Below are positions 7,962-63,046 of a stretch of DNA of 64,000 nucleotides, piece by piece. This DNA comes from Xenococcaceae cyanobacterium MO_167.B27. GTDB taxonomy: Bacteria; Cyanobacteriota; Cyanobacteriia; Cyanobacteriales; Xenococcaceae. A program made the translations under genes and the position numbers. Each line of letters starts with the position of its first letter. Within the stretch, counting starts at the first letter, position 1. Location: contig JASJCP010000008.1 of the NCBI GenBank assembly GCA_030065935.1, positions 62,001 through 126,000 on the forward strand. The letters are read 5' to 3'. The notes under the pieces were generated by a model. The model saw only the letters and a program-made list of their open reading frames with translations. It made no database searches and was not told the DNA's origin.

Positions 7962-10817
7962 ATGACTGAAGCTCTTGATCTAAGACTAACCCACGATCGA
8001 AATCTCAAGGAAATTTTTAAAGTTGCTGTGGAGACAACTCGAAGAATCCTGAATTGCGATCGCGTAGTAATTTACAGTGCCAGCCACTTACCCAAAGCGT
8101 TAGTATTAGCAGAATCTATTAATCCGAAATACTCTTCCATCATCAGAAAAACAATTAAAGACCCTTTTGTAGAAGGGGAGCATTTAGAAATGTACTGCTA
8201 TGGTTTGCCTGTAACCATAGATGATATTCACAAAGCAGATAAAAGTCAAAGTGACTTAGAAGACTTAGAAAAGCTGGAAATTAAAAGTCTGGCGATCGCA
8301 CCTATCTTGGTCAATGATGAATTATTAGCTTTGTTAGCTGCTCATCAATGTTCTAAACTCCAAACTTGGAACTATAAAGAAGTCAAATTGTTAACAGAAA
8401 GAGCCAACACAGCAAGTTGCGCTCTCTCAAACATAGTTGAGGCTCAGAAGCGGAAATATTTTAATTCCACCAAACAGATAGTAGAAAATTACCCAACCCC
8501 CAATTTTTTCCCAACAATGGAGCAAAAAGACAACAGCAAAGGCAAGGAAAATCTTGATTATACAGAGCCAAAAACCATAATACAAAAAAATCGAGATAAA
8601 TTATTTTCTGAGGTTCAAGATAAGATAACTCAACAATTGGGACAGAAAGATCTGCTTAACACAACAGTCAGAGAAGTACGTAATTTACTAGAATGCGATC
8701 GTGTTGTAGCCTATAGTCTAGAACTAGATAGTTATGGTTCAGTAGTAGCTGAATCTGTGGTTAATGGATGGACTAAAGCTTTAGGTAAAACTATAGAAGA
8801 CCCCTGTTTGGTAAATCAATATTTCGATAAATATCGTAATGGTCGAGTCCACTTCTGGAATAGTCTTCACAGTTACAAAGCAAATCCCTGTTATCTTGAA
8901 CAGTTAGAAGCCCTAGAAGTTAAAGCTGGCTTAGTTGCACCAATTCTTAATGAAGGTCAACTATATGGTTTATTAATCGCCCATCAGTGTTCTGCTCCTC
9001 GTAATTGGGAAGAACAAGAAATTTACTGGATAACTGAAATCGCTAATCAAGTAGCTATTATGATCGAATACACTAAAATTTTCACCTATAACGAGCAAGA
9101 GCCAAAACAAAAACAACTAGCTGATGGCGAAAGACTAAGCCAACAGATAGAAAAAGAAAGTATGTGGACAGAGTATTTTACCGAAGCGATCCAACAGATT
9201 CGCCAATCTCTCAAAACTGATGATATTCTCAAAACTAGTGTGAGGGAAGTACGTAGAGTTTTAAATTGCGATCGCGTCTTAGTCTATAGTATGACCCAGG
9301 ACAATTATGGCATGATTGTCGCGGAATCTGTAGCAGCTGGTTGGACAAAAGCAGAAGGGAGAATCCTGGAAGACCCTTGCTTTGAAGCCAAGTATCTTGA
9401 TAAGTACCGTAAGGGTAGAGTCCGCGCTTGGAATAACATTTACGAAGCAGGAATGAGTAAGTGTCATGTCGAACAACTAGAAACACTAGAAGTCAAAGCC
9501 AATCTAGTAACACCAATTATCAGCGAAGATAAACTATTTGGTTTACTAGTAGCTCACCAATGTTCTGATATCCGTCAATGGCAACAACCTGAAATCTTTT
9601 GGTTAACTCAAATCGCCACCCAAGTAGGATTTGCTCTCGACAACGCCCACCTGTTAGCTGATGCTCAACAGCTATGTCAGCAAGTAGAACAAGAAAGTAA
9701 GTGGACAGGGTATTATACCGATGCGGTTCAACAGATTCGTCAATCTCTCAGAATGGATGATATTCTCAAAACTAGTGTGAGGGAAGTACGGAGAATTATC
9801 AATTGCGATCGTGTGGTAGTATATTGCATCAACGAAGATAACTATGGGCTGATTGTCGCGGAATCTGTAACCTCTGGTTGGACAAGAGCAGAAGGGAGAA
9901 TCATCAAAGACCCTTGCTTTGAAGCCAAATATCTCGACCAGTACCGCAACGGTAGAGTTCGCGCCATAAGTAACATTTACGAAGCAGGAATGAGTGAGTG
10001 TTATGTCCAACAATTAGAAAGATTAGAAGTCAAGGCGAATCTAGTAGCACCTATTATTCACAAAGGACAACTATATGGTTTATTAGTAGCTCACCAATGC
10101 TCCAATCCTCGTCAATGGCAACAATCTGAAATCCGTTGGATAGCTCAAATTGCTGGTCAAGTTGGTTTTGCTCTCGACAATGCTCAAATGCTTGAGCAAT
10201 TAGAGAAATCTACTAAAGATACTCAAGAAATTTTAGACCGTGCTGTAAATAACATCTCTAATATCAAAGCCACAGTTCACAATGTGACAGTAGGATTTGA
10301 ACATCTCAGTAATTCTTGCCAAAATTTTTCTCAGACAGTCAACAGCCTCAAAGATTTGAGTAAGCAAATAGCTCAACAATCTATGGGTATAACTAGAGCC
10401 TTAAATATAAGTCAGATGGACGAGAGCCGTCAAAATTCTATTATGGACTTGTCTGATACAATTTTCTCTTTGATGCAAGAGCTATTGGAAGCTACCGCAA
10501 AAGTTGAACCCTTATTTGGCAACATCAAAACAGAACTAACAGAAAAAACAGTCGCTCTAGACTTAGAAACACAGCAGCTGATCGATGGAGTTGCAGAGTT
10601 TCAAACAGTCCGTCAAAAGCTAGACCAGGTTATTGCACTGAATCACGACATAAGTAACCTTATAGAGGTCATTTCTCAGTCCTTAGAAAATCAAATACAA
10701 AGTTCAACCTTCGCCCAAGATTCAGTTCAAGAATTAGCAGATATTACAGAGCGCGTTTCTCAACAGTCTATGGCTATAACTAAGTCTTTTAACCAGTTAG
10801 TTTTACTGGGTTTATAA
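7962..10817 (+). CDS. Four-GAF sensory protein, possible cyanobacteriochrome
   Basis: The 951-residue protein has four tandem GAF domains (about 14-155, 222-360, 415-545 and 594-735) and a long helical C-terminal region (about 750-951) with coiled-coil character. It has no kinase, GGDEF or recognisable MCP signalling tip. GAF3 carries DPCF (C473) followed 28 residues later by C501-H502; GAF4 carries DPCF (C652) and C680-Y681, also 28 apart; GAF2 has DPCL (C282) and C310-Y311. In DXCF cyanobacteriochromes such as TePixJ the two bilin-linked cysteines lie in the same motifs with the same spacing. GAF1 lacks both cysteines. No transmembrane segment or HAMP domain is visible, so it is probably cytoplasmic. 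Bilin binding is inferred. Confidence 0.8.
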   Translation: MTEALDLRLTHDRNLKEIFKVAVETTRRILNCDRVVIYSASHLPKALVLAESINPKYSSIIRKTIKDPFVEGEHLEMYCYGLPVTIDDIHKADKSQSDLEDLEKLEIKSLAIAPILVNDELLALLAAHQCSKLQTWNYKEVKLLTERANTASCALSNIVEAQKRKYFNSTKQIVENYPTPNFFPTMEQKDNSKGKENLDYTEPKTIIQKNRDKLFSEVQDKITQQLGQKDLLNTTVREVRNLLECDRVVAYSLELDSYGSVVAESVVNGWTKALGKTIEDPCLVNQYFDKYRNGRVHFWNSLHSYKANPCYLEQLEALEVKAGLVAPILNEGQLYGLLIAHQCSAPRNWEEQEIYWITEIANQVAIMIEYTKIFTYNEQEPKQKQLADGERLSQQIEKESMWTEYFTEAIQQIRQSLKTDDILKTSVREVRRVLNCDRVLVYSMTQDNYGMIVAESVAAGWTKAEGRILEDPCFEAKYLDKYRKGRVRAWNNIYEAGMSKCHVEQLETLEVKANLVTPIISEDKLFGLLVAHQCSDIRQWQQPEIFWLTQIATQVGFALDNAHLLADAQQLCQQVEQESKWTGYYTDAVQQIRQSLRMDDILKTSVREVRRIINCDRVVVYCINEDNYGLIVAESVTSGWTRAEGRIIKDPCFEAKYLDQYRNGRVRAISNIYEAGMSECYVQQLERLEVKANLVAPIIHKGQLYGLLVAHQCSNPRQWQQSEIRWIAQIAGQVGFALDNAQMLEQLEKSTKDTQEILDRAVNNISNIKATVHNVTVGFEHLSNSCQNFSQTVNSLKDLSKQIAQQSMGITRALNISQMDESRQNSIMDLSDTIFSLMQELLEATAKVEPLFGNIKTELTEKTVALDLETQQLIDGVAEFQTVRQKLDQVIALNHDISNLIEVISQSLENQIQSSTFAQDSVQELADITERVSQQSMAITKSFNQLVLLGL

Positions 10818-16204: not shown

Positions 16205-16420
16205 TTGACTTCCTCCTCGCCCTCCGCTCCTAAACGTCGCTAAAGAACGAGGATTCCTACTGGAGTTAAACCCCTTCGGTGGGTTGACTCTTCAACAGGT
16301 GTTCCAACGAACTCCCTCCAAGTCCAAGCAAGGCGAGTCCCGCCTCTCTAATGTTTAAACTGCCGACATAATCAGCGTTAGCTGTATAGTTGCAATCTTT
16401 TTGTTGACAGTAGAAAGTAG
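16205..16420 (-). ncRNA. Candidate omega-RNA (reRNA) at the TnpB 3' end
   Basis: In IS200/IS605 elements the guide RNA of TnpB covers the end of the tnpB gene and the right end of the element, with the guide in flanking DNA. The matching interval here would span the tnpB 3' end to about 16205 on the minus strand; guide bases would lie just left of 16205. This follows from known element architecture; I did not fold the RNA. Confidence 0.35.
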
Positions 16421-17471
16421 CTTGAGTTTTTCTATTTTCTGCTGAAATATAGTTACACTTTGGACATTTTCTTGATGTATTTCTAGGATTGACTTGAATT
16501 AGTTGCCCACCACTCCAAGTTAATTTATACTCAAGTTGACGGATAAATTCTCTCCAACCTTGGTCAAGAATTGCCCTATTTAATCCAGACTTTTGTTTAA
16601 CATTTTTCCCTGGATTTTCTACTGTCCCCTTGGCTGATTTACTCATATTGACTATTTTCAAGTCTTCAAGAATTACTATGGCGTGGTTTTGGCTCAGTTC
16701 ACTTGAAATCTTGTGAAGATAATCGTTACGAATATTGGCAATACGGATATGTAGTTTAGTTATTTTAAACTTTAGTCTTTTCCATTTATTAGAAAACTTT
16801 TCTTTTTTAGCTAATTTCTTTTGTAGTTTAGCTAATTTGTTTTTGAGTTTCTTAAATATATTTAATGGTTCATAATATTTTTGATTTGATAGAGTTAAAA
16901 ACCTGACTACTCCCAAATCTGCTCCAATAATGGAACTTGAAGGATGCTTGGGTATTTCTACATCTATTTCAACTTGAATAGATACAAACCAGTGTTGTCC
17001 TTTTTTAGAGACGGTTACATTTTTAGCTTCTCCAATAACATTTTGACTTTTGTAGTATCTAACCCAACCTATTTTTGGGAGAAATATTCTGCCATTATTA
17101 TTATCAATTTTGAATCCCTGTGGATAGCGAAACGAATCTCGTTGTCCTTTCTTTTTGAATTTTGGAAATTGTTTAGGATTAGTTTTGTCAAAAGCTTCTT
17201 TTAATGCTTGAGACAAATTTTTCAATGATTGCTGCAAGGCTTGAGAATGAACTTCTTTCAGAAAAAATAAATCTTCTTGCTTTTTCCACTGGGTCAATTC
17301 TTTAGTCAATCCAGAATAAGATAAACAAGACTGTTTGGCATTCAATCTTTCTTTTTGAAATGCCAAAGCTTTATTCCAAACCAGTCGTGAGCAACCCGCA
17401 AATTGAGACAGTTTTCGGGTTAGAGTCTTGTTGGTCTTGAGTCTAAATTTGTATGTCTTGCGTAAAATCAT
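16266..17471 (-). CDS. tnpB: TnpB, RNA-guided nuclease of the IS605-type element
   Basis: The 401-residue protein has the OrfB/TnpB layout: an N-terminal HTH region, then a RuvC-like core split around a zinc ribbon. The catalytic acids appear intact: D185 in IIGADLGVVRF, E269 in AIVILEDLKIV and D367 in ANADYVGSLNI. The zinc ribbon uses C336, C339, C355 and C360. Members of this family are guided by an RNA from the transposon end and cut at the donor site. The start is the ATG at 17471. Near the last aspartate NADYVG replaces the common ADxNAA pattern. Confidence 0.93.
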   Translation of the reverse strand: MILRKTYKFRLKTNKTLTRKLSQFAGCSRLVWNKALAFQKERLNAKQSCLSYSGLTKELTQWKKQEDLFFLKEVHSQALQQSLKNLSQALKEAFDKTNPKQFPKFKKKGQRDSFRYPQGFKIDNNNGRIFLPKIGWVRYYKSQNVIGEAKNVTVSKKGQHWFVSIQVEIDVEIPKHPSSSIIGADLGVVRFLTLSNQKYYEPLNIFKKLKNKLAKLQKKLAKKEKFSNKWKRLKFKITKLHIRIANIRNDYLHKISSELSQNHAIVILEDLKIVNMSKSAKGTVENPGKNVKQKSGLNRAILDQGWREFIRQLEYKLTWSGGQLIQVNPRNTSRKCPKCNYISAENRKTQATFYCQQKDCNYTANADYVGSLNIREAGLALLGLGGSSLEHLLKSQPTEGV

Positions 17472-22066: not shown

Positions 22067-25000
22067 TTGATAAAACACAATCCTTTAATTGTTGCTCCAC
22101 ATACTCTACTGTCAGAGGCAATAGCTATGATGACTCCATCGCAGCCAAGTAGCTTATCTGATTGTGTTTTGGTAGTTGCAGCATCAGGATTAATCGGAAT
22201 TATCACCAAAAGCGATGTAGTGAGATTGGTAGCTACAGGAGTGGATCTAGCAACTACAACTGTTGAAGAGGTAATGAGTCAGCCAGTAATGACACTAGAG
22301 CGATCGCAATGCCAAAATATAGAGTTAGTTTGGTCGTTTATGCAACAGCATTCGGTGAGTTATGTCCCCGTTTTAGGAGACAATCAAGAGATAATAGGGG
22401 TTATGGTGAGCAAGAGTTTAATGCAGTGTTTGGGAACTAAGGAAGAAAATCAAAGGGAGTCAGAGCCAACAGCAACAGAATTAGAATTAGAAAGATTTTT
22501 TGATATTACTCCCAGTATCCTGTGTATTGCTGGTTTTGATGGCTACTTTAAATGGATCAATCCTGCTTTTTGTAAGATTCTGGGTTTTACTCAAAGTGAG
22601 CTAAAAGCGGAACCTTTTATCAACTTCGTTCATCCAAAAGATCGTGCTGCAACCCTAGCTGAAATGGAGAATTTGGCAGCAGGAAACACTACTATTTCCT
22701 GGGAAAATCGCTACCGTACTAAAGATGGTGATTATCGTTGGTTGTTGTGGACAGCAAAAGCTTATTTGGCAGAAGAAAGGATATACGCATCCGCGCAAGA
22801 TATTACGGAGCGCAAAACAGCAGAGCAAGCCTTAAAAGACAGTGAAGCAAGATGGCAACTTATGCTAAGGGAAGCTAATGATGGTATTTGGGATTGGAAC
22901 GTTCAAACTAATGAAGTGTTCTTTTCGCGACGCTGGAAAGAGATGCTAGGTTTTGCTGAGGATGAAATTGGTAATACTTTAGAAGAATGGTCAAAGCGAG
23001 TTCATCCAGATGATATCGGTTGGGTAACTAAGGTTATGGAAGATCATTTTGCCCAAAAAACCCCTTTCTATATCTCTGAGCATCGAGTGCTGTGTAAAGA
23101 CGGTAGCTATAAGTGGATTTTAGACCGAGGACAAGCATTGTGGGATGAAGCAGGTAAGGTAATACGGATCATTGGTTCTTATACTGATATTAGCCAGCAG
23201 CAAGCTGCGCTTCGCAAGGGCAAAAAAGCGGAAATTCAACTACAACAAGAACGAGATTTTTCTAAGGCTGTTATTAATACTGTGGGTGCTTTGGTAGCAG
23301 TATTAGACCGACAAGGAAGAATAGTTAGTTTTAATTATACCTGTGAACAAATTACTGGTTACAGCTTTGAAGAAATTAAAGGTCAGCAAATATGGGAAAA
23401 ATTCATCCCACCCGCCGAAAAAGCCGTAGTGAGAGCGGTATTTGAGCGATTGCTCACAGGACAAGTTCCCAACCAATACACCAACTCTTGGATAGCTAAA
23501 GATGGTAGCAGTCATTTAATTTCCTGGTCGAATACTGCCTTATTCAATGCCCAAGGAGTAGTAGAATTCATTATAGCTACGGGTATTGATGTTACAGAAC
23601 AGTGTCAAGTTTGGAACAAATTAGAAAATCAGTATCAACATACTAAGTTGCTGGCAGAAATAACCCGTAAAATTCGGATGTCCATAGACCTAGAGGAGAT
23701 TCTGCAAACAGCCGTTACAGAAGTACAGCACTTATTGGCTTGCGATCGCGTTTTAATTATGGAGGTGCGCTGTAATAACATTGCAGTACCCATTAGTGAG
23801 TCGATTTTACCTGAACTTCCCCCCATGTTGGGTTATGAACTTGCAGATCCTCTTTTGGTGGGGGAATATTTAGCAAAATATCGTCAGGGAAAAATTTTAA
23901 CAATTAACGATCTCTCCACCGCGCCAATTGCTCCTGAGATCAAACAGCTATTAGAACAATTTAAAATAAAAGCCCAACTGGTAGTTCCGATTCTTAGTCA
24001 GAAGGAACTCAAAGGTCTTTTAGTAGCCCACCAATGCCACAATCTCAGACAATGGCAAGAAAATGAAATTCAGGTATTAAATCAGTTAGCAGATCAAATT
24101 GGGGTAGCTTTGTCTCAAGCTCAATTACTAAATAATCTGGAAGAACTAGTATCAGAACGCACTACTGAGTTAACGACGACTAACCAACTATTACAAGCAG
24201 AAATAGCGGAGCGGGAGCAAACAGAAGCAGATTTAAGAGAAAATCAGCGAAAGCTAGCAGGTATTTTAGATAATGCGGATGAAGCAATTATTTCTATCAA
24301 CGAACAACAGCAAATTCAACTGTTTAACCGAGGAGCAGAAAAGATTTTCGGTTACAAAGCTCAAGAGATTGTAGGACAGCGGTTAGATATTTTAATACCA
24401 GAAACTTCCCGTCCAGTACACTGCCAGTACATTAATGAGTTTGGTAAATCAGTAGAGCAAGCTCGCACTATGGCAGAGCGTGGTGGTAATGTATATGGTC
24501 TTCGTAAGAATGGTGAAGAGTTCCCCGCAGAAGCTTCTATTGCTAAATTGCCAACCCGAGAGGGAATACTGTTTACTGTGATGCTCAAAGATATTACCAA
24601 GCGACAGCAAGCAGAAGAAAAACTGCAAGCTTCTCAAGCTCTCCTTGCCAAAGCTGAAAAAATCGCTAAAATCGGCAGTTGGGAATATAACCTGGCAACT
24701 CAACAGTTAACTTGGTCAGAGGAATTATTTGAGATTTTAGGGTTTACGAACAATACCTCAATACCATCTTGTCAAGCAATTTTTGAGCGCTTTCATCCAG
24801 AAGACTGGCTTTTAGTCAAAAACACTCTCCAACAGGGACATAGAGACGGCAAACCTTGGCAATTCAACTCTCGTTGGGTGCTACCCAATGGCACAGTTAA
24901 ATATTTAGAAAGCAGAGGAGAACCAACAGTAGATCGTCAAGGTAGAGTTTTTAAAGTGTGGGGGACGATTATGGATATCAGCGATCGCGTACAAGCAGAA

Positions 25001-26053
25001 AAGTCCCTTCAGCGCAGCGAACAACAACTACAATTGATTAGTGATGCTCTGCCAGTTTTAATTGCCTACATAGATAATCAGCAGCGTTACCGTTACAATA
25101 ACCGTACCTACGAAATTTGGTTTGGTAAACCCCGTTCTGCTTTACTAGGAGTTCACATCAAAGAATTATTTGGGGAAGACAACTATCAAAAAATGTTGCC
25201 CTATATCAGGACAGCTTTATCCGGGAAAACCGTTACTTTTGAAATTCAACCTACTAATGAAAGGGGTAATTCTTATTGGATGAATGCTACTTACATTCCT
25301 GATTTTGATTTAGATGGGGAGGTCAAAGGCTTTTTCTCCATGATTGAGGATATTACTGACCGCAAAGAAGTCGAACGGATGAAAAGTGAATTTGTTTCTG
25401 TCGCCAGTCATGAAATGCGAACCCCCCTAACTTCCATTTATGGAGTCATTAAACTACTTTGCGCCGGACGTTTGGGAGAGCTTTCCCCACCAGGAGTAGA
25501 AATGGCAAATATGGCACTGAGAAATAGCGATCGCCTGGTGCGTCTGGTTAACGATATTCTTGATCTTGAACGGATGGAATCAGGAACAGACACAATTGAA
25601 AGACAACAGTGTGACAGTGGGAAGCTGATAAAACAAGCAGCAGAAACTATGGAATCAATGGCTCAGGAGCATCAAATTGTCATCGAAACCAATCCTCAAT
25701 CAATTGAATTCTGGGGAGAGCGCGATCCCATCTTACAAACCCTCACCAATCTACTTAGCAACGCTATTAAGTTTTCTCCTGCTGGCAGTAAAGTCTGGAT
25801 AAGTTGTCAAAAACAAGAGGGAGAAATTCTCTTCGCTGTCCAAGATCGAGGTAGAGGTATTCCCACAGAGAAACTAGAAACTATTTTTGAGCGTTTCCAA
25901 CAAGTAGATGCTTCTGATTCTCGCAAAAAAGGCGGTACTGGTTTGGGTTTAGCCATTTGTCGCCATATTGTCCAGCAACACGGAGGCAAAATTTGGGTAG
26001 AAAGTGTTTATGGTGAGGGTAGCATCTTTTTCTTTACCATTCCCCAGAGTTAA
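22067..26053 (+). CDS. CBS-PAS-GAF hybrid sensor histidine kinase
   Basis: The 1328-residue protein has a CBS pair (about 1-120), three PAS domains (about 137-250, 260-380, 400-515), a GAF domain (about 530-690), three further PAS domains (about 735-850, 860-980, 985-1105), a HisKA domain with H1115 in SVASHEMRTPLTS, and an HATPase with N box, DRGRGIP and GGTGLGLAICRH. The CBS pair may sense adenine nucleotides. The GAF domain has no bilin cysteine. No membrane segment is visible. The start is a TTG at 22067, because the frame has no ATG or GTG between it and an upstream stop and the CBS fold begins there. A single-domain response regulator follows after 44 bp and is the probable partner. Confidence 0.9.
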   Translation: MIKHNPLIVAPHTLLSEAIAMMTPSQPSSLSDCVLVVAASGLIGIITKSDVVRLVATGVDLATTTVEEVMSQPVMTLERSQCQNIELVWSFMQQHSVSYVPVLGDNQEIIGVMVSKSLMQCLGTKEENQRESEPTATELELERFFDITPSILCIAGFDGYFKWINPAFCKILGFTQSELKAEPFINFVHPKDRAATLAEMENLAAGNTTISWENRYRTKDGDYRWLLWTAKAYLAEERIYASAQDITERKTAEQALKDSEARWQLMLREANDGIWDWNVQTNEVFFSRRWKEMLGFAEDEIGNTLEEWSKRVHPDDIGWVTKVMEDHFAQKTPFYISEHRVLCKDGSYKWILDRGQALWDEAGKVIRIIGSYTDISQQQAALRKGKKAEIQLQQERDFSKAVINTVGALVAVLDRQGRIVSFNYTCEQITGYSFEEIKGQQIWEKFIPPAEKAVVRAVFERLLTGQVPNQYTNSWIAKDGSSHLISWSNTALFNAQGVVEFIIATGIDVTEQCQVWNKLENQYQHTKLLAEITRKIRMSIDLEEILQTAVTEVQHLLACDRVLIMEVRCNNIAVPISESILPELPPMLGYELADPLLVGEYLAKYRQGKILTINDLSTAPIAPEIKQLLEQFKIKAQLVVPILSQKELKGLLVAHQCHNLRQWQENEIQVLNQLADQIGVALSQAQLLNNLEELVSERTTELTTTNQLLQAEIAEREQTEADLRENQRKLAGILDNADEAIISINEQQQIQLFNRGAEKIFGYKAQEIVGQRLDILIPETSRPVHCQYINEFGKSVEQARTMAERGGNVYGLRKNGEEFPAEASIAKLPTREGILFTVMLKDITKRQQAEEKLQASQALLAKAEKIAKIGSWEYNLATQQLTWSEELFEILGFTNNTSIPSCQAIFERFHPEDWLLVKNTLQQGHRDGKPWQFNSRWVLPNGTVKYLESRGEPTVDRQGRVFKVWGTIMDISDRVQAEKSLQRSEQQLQLISDALPVLIAYIDNQQRYRYNNRTYEIWFGKPRSALLGVHIKELFGEDNYQKMLPYIRTALSGKTVTFEIQPTNERGNSYWMNATYIPDFDLDGEVKGFFSMIEDITDRKEVERMKSEFVSVASHEMRTPLTSIYGVIKLLCAGRLGELSPPGVEMANMALRNSDRLVRLVNDILDLERMESGTDTIERQQCDSGKLIKQAAETMESMAQEHQIVIETNPQSIEFWGERDPILQTLTNLLSNAIKFSPAGSKVWISCQKQEGEILFAVQDRGRGIPTEKLETIFERFQQVDASDSRKKGGTGLGLAICRHIVQQHGGKIWVESVYGEGSIFFFTIPQS

Positions 26054-59521: not shown

Positions 59522-62500
59522 TTATTTATAATCGCAAATTTTGCGATCGCTTTTACTAACTTCTATATTAGTTTGTAGATAATCCCGTATTTGACTACAG
59601 CCAGCAGCTAATAAATCTAGTTCAAACATCTGTAACAGATCCCAAATAATGGCAGTTTTATCTTCACTAACAGAAGCAAGGGTTTTACCATCTGGACTAA
59701 AAGCAATGCTCCATACTGCTTCATCATGTCCGTAGAAAGTTTTGAGCAATTTACCACTGGGATGCCAAATTTTAATAGTACTGTCCCCACTAGCAGAAGC
59801 AATTAATTGACCATCTGGACTAAAAACAATTTTTCTGATTTCTTCCGTATGACTTTTGAGGGATTGATTGAATGTGATGGTAACTGGATTTGAAGAGTAA
59901 TCTATCTGCCACAGTTTAATTATCCCCTCAAGATCTGCTGTTGCCATAAGTTTGCCATCAGGACTAATAGCCAATACTCCTTCTGACCTAACATTATAGT
60001 TATCTCGATCCAGGGTTTTAATCATATCTCCGCGAGTATTCCAAAGCTTGACAGTTTGGTCGTAACTGGCTGTCGCTATGATCTGACCATCGGGAGTAAA
60101 TGCAATATCTCGCACCACATCTTGATGACCATCCAAACTAGCAATTAAATTACCTTGCCAATCCCAGAGTTTTGCCGTCTTATCTTCACTAGCAGTAGCA
60201 ATTATTTTACCGTTAGGACTAATAGCAATTCGCCATACACCAACTTTATGACCTTGAATAGTTTTGGATAAAAGTATTTGAGGTCGATCTAAATCTTCCA
60301 TCTTTAGCAAGTCAATCGCACCATTCCAATGTCCAGATACCAGTTTGTGTCCATCGTGATTAATAATAATTCCTAAAACTGAGTCTTGTTGGTTTTGGAA
60401 AGTATCTAGCAAAGAACCATCTTTAGACCATAATTTAACTTTGCGGTCATCGCTTGCGGTGAGAATCATTTCTCCTTGAGGATGAAAAGCTACATCTATA
60501 ATCGGTGCGCTGTGACTTCTCAATACTTTTAATAAAGGATTATCTAATTTAGCTAATTTAACGATATCTTGTTCAGAAGCAGTGGCAATACTATTACCAT
60601 CAGGGCTAATATCAATATCCCAAATTCTCTTTCTTTCAATATTAATTGTCTTTAATAAAGCACCCTCAAGACTCCAGACTTTCACCGTACCATCCCAACT
60701 AGCGGTGATGACTTTTTGGTTATCAGGATGAAAAACAACTGCAACTATAGAAGAACTATGTCCTTCTAAACTATGTAATAATTGACCGCTATCGGCTTGC
60801 CAGAGCTTGACAGTTTGATCGTGACTAACAGAGGCTATGGTCTGACCGTTAGCACTAAAAGCTACATTTCTAATTTCATTGGTGTGACTGTTGAGAGTTT
60901 TGTCGAGTTGAAAACGACCGAAATTGTTAATTTTCCAGAGTTTAACGGTTTTATCCTCACTAGCAGTGGCAATCATCTGACCATCGGGACTAAAAACAGC
61001 TTTCCAAACTGAATTATTGTGACCTTTAAGAGTATCAATTAGGGTACCGTCTCGCTGCCACAGTTTGACTGTTTTATCTCTGCTAGCAGTGGCAATTAGT
61101 TGACCATCAGGACTAAAAGCAACTCCTAAAACTTCATCTTGGTGACCTTCGAGAGTATTCAACAGTTGACCATCTAGATGCCAAAGTTTAACTGTATAAT
61201 CCCGACTAGCAGTGGCAATTAGCTGACTATCAGGGCTAAAAGCAACATCCCAAACCGCAGCTTGATGTCCTGACAAAGTATGAAGTAAAGAACCATCCAT
61301 TTTCCAAAGTTTTACAGTTCGATCAGAACTAGCAGAAGCAATTAGTTGACCATCAGGGCTGATATCTACCCCAAAAACTACTTCGCTATGTCCTGACAAG
61401 CGATTATATTCATCAACTCCATATACTGCTTGCCGTAAAATTGATTCAATCTGTTTATCGGTATCTTCATCTTGATAGTTAAGCTGTTGCCATTTTTGCT
61501 TGACCTTGATCGCTGTCATCAGAGCTTTTAATTTCCGATCGGAAGCAAAGAGAGCTTCAGAATAATTACTTAGAGCTTTAATTTCGTTCAGCATCGCCTG
61601 ACGATATTGTCTATAGGCGATCGCACCAAAACCTAAAATACTCGACAAAGTAATTACCAATGCGATTAAAACATAGCGTTGCAGTCGAGCGGTTTTTTGC
61701 TGTTCTATAAGTCGGGCTTTGATTTCTTGAGCCCGTTCTGCTTCCAAAGCCTGTTGTGCTTCTTTTCTATCTAATTCTTCGCTGCTGGTCAAAAAACGGT
61801 AATCCAGGTTGCTTAAACTTTTATCCCAAGACCATTTTTGGGCATCCTGTAAAGCTTTTCCTCGTAATAGTCTGGAGGTATCTTGGTATTGAGATTGCTG
61901 CCAAGCCTTCAAAGCCTCTGAATAGGGGCGTAATTGAGATAGTTGTGTTTCTACCCAAGACAGATTAAAAACTTCTTGATAGATACGGTTGCGGACTTGA
62001 AGCTTCTCTTTTTGCTTAATAATCAATCCCGAAAGCATTAGTTCTTGTTGCTCAATGCTATTATCCGCAGGAATAAATCCTCGTTGCAGAATTTGCTGGT
62101 ACATTGCCAATAAAGAACCTCTTTTTTGTTCGTTACTCAAAATGCGATCGCATTTTGTTTTGAGATGTTCTGGTTCATCTTGAGTTTGCCAATTGTTAAT
62201 AATCTGAGTTTGGATTAGCTGTTCCAGCCAATCTTCTTGATTATTCAACTGGTTCTGTGAAGAGTAATCCCGAACTAGTTGACATAACTTCTGGGTGAGA
62301 AAAGGCTGACCGTTAGTCCAAGTTAGAATTTGTTTGAGAATTAATTGCGGATTGCCAATGCTTTCTGGGAACCCTGCCAATAAAGGCTTGGCTTCTTGCC
62401 AATTAAATCCATTGAGTTGAATAGCGCAACCAATATTAAAAGGTGTGCATCGATAATCGTTAATCAAATCTGAGGGTGTAGCCACACCAAACAAGGCAAA

Positions 62501-63046
62501 ACTCAAACGTCGATACTGAGGATTGAGGCTACGCTGATTATAACAGAAGCGAATCAGAGCAAAAAAATCATTGAGCGAAAAATCTAAACTTAAAACACTA
62601 TCTACTTCATCAAAACAAATAACTATTGGCGGTTCTAGAGAATTGTCTTGGTCTCTAGTCTCAACTAATAATACTTCTTCAATAAACTGACTCAATCTTT
62701 GAATTAAAGATAAATCTTGGCGTTCCTTCCACCATTGCTTGAGATTGATTTTGTCAAATAGATTAAAACCTTGCCATAATTCCACTACCAACCCTTTGTA
62801 CCATTGCTCGATAGTAACTTTTGCTCCACTAATGCGGGTCAAATCGATCGCTGTACAACAATATCCATCTTGTCGCAAATGGTTTATCATCCTTACCATT
62901 AGGCTGGATTTGCCCATTTGACGGGCATTGAGGACATAACAAAACTCCCCTCGTTTCAATGCTTCGTAGAGTTGGCGATCTGCAGCACGCACTACATAAG
63001 AAACTGCATCCATCGGCAAACTGCCACCAACTTTATAGTCATTCAC
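59522..63046 (-). CDS. AAA-domain protein with a membrane segment and 14 WD40 repeats
   Basis: The 1174-residue protein starts with an AAA_35-like ATPase domain (about 1-380) with P-loop NARQMGKSS (40-48) and Walker [12 protein letters not shown]. Then comes a helical region with a membrane segment (about 455-480: [20 protein letters not shown]), and 14 WD40 repeats from about 555 to 1140, each of about 41 residues, for example [20 protein letters not shown]. Fourteen repeats would make two seven-bladed propellers. Such proteins are common in filamentous and unicellular cyanobacteria as putative signalling scaffolds. Repeats 7, 9 and 12 are more divergent. Confidence 0.9.

Follow-up and report, generated by a model that had tools for sequence, protein, structure and literature searches.

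The Xenococcaceae cyanobacterium MO_167.B27 encodes a 951-amino acid protein in which four GAF domains, two of them well-supported candidates for bilin binding, are followed by a tail that homology identifies as a chemoreceptor hairpin, and in which a conserved sequence stands in place of the CheA/CheW-binding end of that hairpin. The gene lies in a 64,000-nucleotide stretch of contig JASJCP010000008.1 (assembly GCA_030065935.1, positions 62,001 to 126,000), referred to here as the window. Because it holds CheA and CheW, the tip of a chemoreceptor belongs to the best-conserved parts of bacterial signalling proteins. Since the part replaced is the end of the rod that switches the kinase, a light signal probably leaves this protein by a non-canonical route, and the output would be of a new kind. 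We consider it likely that the protein is soluble and receives light through several bilins, and that its hairpin works through contacts with other proteins without activating CheA. If true, this would offer a natural example of an array component diverted to another output, and it raises the question of what role a chemoreceptor hairpin can have without its kinase. A literature search, with most subscription journals outside its scope, found no account of a cyanobacteriochrome with such a tail, of Pleurocapsa cyanobacteriochromes or of baeocyte phototaxis receptors, and almost nothing on such receptors in Pleurocapsales.

Cysteine pairs and candidate bilin sites

The open reading frame occupies positions 7962-10817 of the window on the forward strand, as do all of its features given below, and is intact from ATG to stop codon. 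Pfam finds four GAF stretches, as the initial annotation of this DNA had claimed: GAF1 (residues 12-160; window 7995-8441), GAF2 (residues 226-374; 8637-9083), GAF3 (residues 416-566; 9207-9659) and GAF4 (residues 596-740; 9747-10181). Three cysteine pairs with a spacing of 28 residues had also been reported, and a scan of the complete sequence confirms exactly three, Cys282/Cys310 in GAF2, Cys473/Cys501 in GAF3 and Cys652/Cys680 in GAF4, the upstream cysteine of each lying in a DPC motif (at residues 280, 471 and 650) and the downstream cysteine in C-Y, C-H and C-Y motifs, respectively. All three pairs align in register with C494 and C522 of the TePixJ GAF domain and are therefore homologous positions rather than a chance spacing. 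Cys310, Cys501 and Cys680 are the equivalents of the canonical cysteine, C522, and the second cysteine of the DXCF type is found in a DPCF motif in GAF3 and GAF4 and in DPCL in GAF2. GAF1 reads DPF and has neither the canonical nor the second cysteine; the pair is absent from GAF1 of every aligned relative with a complete N-terminus, and this domain probably carries no covalent bilin.

TePixJ is the top PDB match of both GAF3 (1e-42) and GAF4 (2e-42). The bilin contacts of TePixJ include D492, Q526, N535, H523, H498 and W499 (PMC6955287). A comparison of these contacts, which the initial annotation had suggested, gives a divided result: the equivalents of D492, Q526 and N535, along with those of C494 and C522, are all found in GAF3 and GAF4, and H523 corresponds to histidine in GAF3 and tyrosine in GAF4, but H498 and W499, which contact the B-ring propionate, are replaced by lysine and tyrosine. 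The earlier choice of GAF3 as the best bilin candidate, based on its DPCF and CH motifs, is upheld by the motifs themselves and by its match to TePixJ. GAF3 and GAF4 are thus well-supported candidate DXCF cyanobacteriochrome domains with predicted bilin binding, and GAF2, with its DPCL motif, is a weaker candidate. Homology, in the form of these PDB matches and the register of both cysteines, likewise lends good support to the proposal that the protein is a multi-chromophore DXCF cyanobacteriochrome. The genome contains three bilin reductase genes.

Among 80 GAF domains of the family, a count that leaves out the first GAF domains, both cysteines are present in 71, neither in six and only one in three (Fisher p 6e-7, a guide only, as the sequences are related). 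The losses are confined to GAF2, whose pair is missing in several relatives, or to GAF3 of a class of 842 amino acids; in the short class, which includes the window protein, GAF3 and GAF4 retain both cysteines together. Coupled loss is the pattern expected of residues that share a ligand, and it speaks against the earlier alternative that the cysteines are non-functional leftovers. Together with the TePixJ alignment, joint retention and loss also rule out chance spacing. A related possibility is that the cysteines no longer bind bilin and that the protein serves as a scaffold of GAF domains and coiled coil, a reading with which the replacement of H498/W499, the GAF2 pairs gone from several relatives and the lack of a pair in GAF1 would agree. 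We regard it as improbable, since the cysteines of GAF3 and GAF4 stay together in the short class, losses are mostly joint and other pocket positions are retained.

A chemoreceptor hairpin with a replaced tip

The initial annotation described the region following GAF4 as having no standard output domain. This stands insofar as Pfam finds no kinase or cyclase domain in the 951-amino acid protein and the MCP tip motif is missing; no known output domain could be assigned to the tail, where every Pfam and NCBIfam family falls below its cut-off. The tail nevertheless has relatives, and on the combined evidence of homology, an AlphaFold2 model and Foldseek it is an MCP antiparallel hairpin. Its likeness to the canonical MCP signalling domain (PF00015) extends to the two-helix hairpin, the register and the C-terminal end, but it scores 18.5 bits against a Pfam cut-off of 34.6. 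By comparison, the genome has 17 MCP matches above the cut-off, 16 at 108-159 bits and one at 36.7, and a paralogue on contig C203 gives two weak pieces of 25.8 and 24.5 bits (36.8 together). The tail is collinear along its whole length with MCP tails of its own genome. The AlphaFold2 tail model, built from 29 sequences (pLDDT 79), consists of two helices, at tail residues 2-82 and 87-216, with the turn at the position of the former tip, and a Foldseek search of the PDB with the tail places chemoreceptor structures at ranks 1 to 13. A full-length model of modest confidence (pLDDT 71.6, pTM 0.36; tail mostly below 60) resembles 4fof over one GAF domain (TM 0.84, 1.7 Å) and has a single helix from GAF4 (residue 721) to the turn (residue 813). 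This predicted unbroken helix (window 10122-10400) would lead from GAF4 into the N-terminal arm of the hairpin; the C-terminal arm (residues 821-950; 10422-10811) has an end that resembles MCP C-termini.

The replaced-tip region spans residues 800-845 (window 10359-10496), with the turn at approximately 814-820, and is kept in relatives. The canonical tip of one MCP of the same genome aligns with QQSMGITRALNISQMDESRQNSIMDLSDTIFSLM in the window protein. None of the 30 scanned proteins (tail family and intermediates) has the CheA/CheW tip motif, which is seen in five of six canonical proteins of the window's genome. Invariant columns are somewhat commoner in the tip region (15 of 57) than in the rest of the tail (16 of 141; p 0.01). 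Graded tip intermediates occur in relatives from other families and show, on alignment evidence, a stepwise loss of the tip. The unrooted tail tree, which draws its canonical rows from a single genome, contains one well-supported branch (100/99) that parts canonical from tipless sequences, a split that fits a single loss.

The preserved hairpin fold and register, and a genome that holds 28 CheW-domain matches as well as its 17 MCP matches, could also be explained if the window protein still feeds ordinary chemosensory arrays, with the hairpin entering mixed bundles or trimers and light tuning CheA indirectly. This is unlikely in our estimation: the rewritten part is the tip, where receptors meet one another as well as CheA and CheW, about 80 amino acids of one arm are gone from the short form, and no che genes adjoin the window gene. 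We infer instead a contact-based output for the window protein, and the simplest account is that a PixJ-type lineage has moved away from CheA control.

Distribution, selection and gene neighbourhoods

A search with the tail covered 60 related genomes, 27 of them from the family of the window's genome; 17 of these 27 hold copies at 51-100% identity, 26 in total, and the next matches are at 39% or less. When 389 genomes of the order were searched with a profile, no further copies of comparable strength were found outside the family, where the best match (G303) scored 168 bits. The named genomes with the tail are Pleurocapsales (Pleurocapsa, Xenococcus, Hyella and Myxosarcina), and related MAGs have it as well. 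A long class of approximately 1,200-1,470 amino acids includes the C203 paralogue (locus L031), and the short class, to which the window gene belongs, has an N-terminal arm about 80 amino acids shorter than that of the long paralogues. One genome (G016) carries long and short paralogues in tandem (L077 6530-13200).

Nei-Gojobori dN/dS values for the tail, point values without confidence limits, range from 0.19 to 0.33 across six pairs and indicate that the copies evolve under purifying selection. Conservation of the tail is similar to that of GAF1 and GAF2 and lower than that of GAF3 and GAF4. These data bear on the possibility that the window gene duplicates the long paralogue, has no function of its own and is decaying, for which one could cite the shortened arm and the two of nine short-type orthologues that are broken in their assemblies. 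Both broken genes (L148 6415-8819 and L088 6865-8621, from G009 and G012) are split into two frames and are either pseudogenes or assembly errors. Decay is the least likely of the readings considered here, because the 951-amino acid reading frame is intact, the short class (five rows) forms a supported clade (100/99) that spans genera, and dN/dS in short-class pairs is 0.19-0.34 in the GAF domains and the tail.

Long-class genes have a recurrent neighbourhood. A gene for a PstS-like protein (PBP_like_2) lies on the opposite strand to the receptor at all eight long-class loci first examined. Such a gene is seen at L031 1285-2325 (reverse strand), with equivalents in L077, L078, L079, L081-L084, L091 and L092; L144 and L145 likewise have the PstS-like neighbour, and the 842-amino acid class (L089, L090) does not. 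Beyond the PstS-like gene, seven of the eight loci contain a multi-GAF gene, missing at L081, whose product opens with a predicted membrane region wherever its start is in view. Neither gene is found beside the window gene. Genes for an alcohol dehydrogenase, a phosphoribosyltransferase and an FtsH-like protein reappear next to orthologues in G007, G009 or both, but were rejected as partners; they look like housekeeping genes, and their recurrence is therefore taken as synteny only.

CheA-like neighbours of distant relatives and the proposed output

Outside the tight family, multi-GAF receptors with partly degraded tips are found in G303, G353, G342 and G049, the tip in G353 reading AGQMNQQSMNVAIAAGRSRSAGQESVVVLAETVRSL. 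At G007 C235, G012 C120 and G011 the tip has changed less than in the window protein, but the motif is missing there as well. A CheA-like gene adjoins the receptor gene at eight loci, in G303, G353, G342, G049 (C175), G012 (C152 and C120), G007 (C235) and G011; at G012 C120 a 134-amino acid reading frame separates the two. The CheA-like genes lie at L134 8589-10520, L161 10307-11707, L162 10629-12539, L163 7119-9032, L170 5032-6378 and L171 9624-10874 (all forward strand) and at L091 4386-5363 and L172 6052-7395 (both reverse strand). Three of the eight pairs were found from the CheA-like side, so the association is not merely a product of looking around receptors. A CheW-like domain is present in all eight proteins and neither a kinase nor a dimerisation domain is detectable in any of them, and some also have an Hpt and/or receiver domain; Pfam finds Hpt in G049 and G353, below threshold in G342 and not in the other five. 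The phospho-histidine motif, aligned in four of the eight, is intact only in G049 C175 (L134) and lost in G303, G353 and G342.

In a survey of CheA architectures, all CheA proteins of the set have a kinase domain, and that of Rhodobacter sphaeroides CheA3 is described as defective (PMC10782961). CheA3 is a precedent for these neighbours, though not for the window protein, in that Hpt and/or CheW domains are recognisable without a working kinase domain; unlike CheA3, the neighbours are proteins of 325-643 amino acids in which the kinase and dimerisation domains are undetectable and, in three of the four aligned, the phospho-histidine is lost. No such gene lies beside the window gene, and the search of the window's genome for a kinase-less CheA-like partner gave matches only inside full-length CheA-sized frames. 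These neighbourhoods raise the tentative idea, which we hold with less confidence than the contact-based output of the window protein, of a kinase-independent "pseudo-chemosensory" light system. In this system, receptors with several bilins and a rebuilt tip would be paired with a kinase-less CheA-like protein in the distant relatives, or with the PstS-like protein and the membrane multi-GAF protein in the long class, and a light signal, perhaps with a solute signal, would pass by contact without phosphorylation at the receptor level.

PixJ1 has an MCP module and partners with CheW and CheA (PMC5812497). The window protein shares with TePixJ and Synechocystis PixJ1 the DXCF GAF domains, the two cysteines 28 residues apart, the GAF fold and a C-terminal hairpin of chemoreceptor type. 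It differs from them in having no visible transmembrane part, three cysteine-paired GAF domains, a replaced tip, a shortened N-terminal arm and no adjoining CheA or CheW genes. Its lineage probably descends from PixJ-like receptors that formerly worked with CheA, were later freed from CheA control and had their tip rebuilt. In the mechanism that we propose, up to three bilins would be attached to the cysteines, those of GAF3 and GAF4 being the likeliest to be of the TePixJ DXCF type and that of GAF2 less sure. Isomerisation of the bilins by light would move the helix leaving GAF4, and a dimeric hairpin would relay this motion to the new tip. The tip, in turn, may touch a partner other than canonical CheA/CheW, or a companion receptor from its own lineage, for which the long paralogue and the membrane multi-GAF protein are candidates, and the output would be an altered protein contact rather than kinase activation through the usual interface.

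Elsewhere in the window, a gene at 22067-26053 (forward strand) encodes a large PAS/GAF sensor histidine kinase with HisKA and HATPase_c domains, the GAF region of which matches the 951-amino acid protein at 35%. A gene at 16266-17471 (reverse strand) encodes a transposon-type TnpB relative with an OrfB_IS605 / Cas12f1-like TNB domain, and one at 59522-63046 (reverse strand) encodes a 1174-amino acid protein in which an AAA-like domain is followed by many WD40 repeats.
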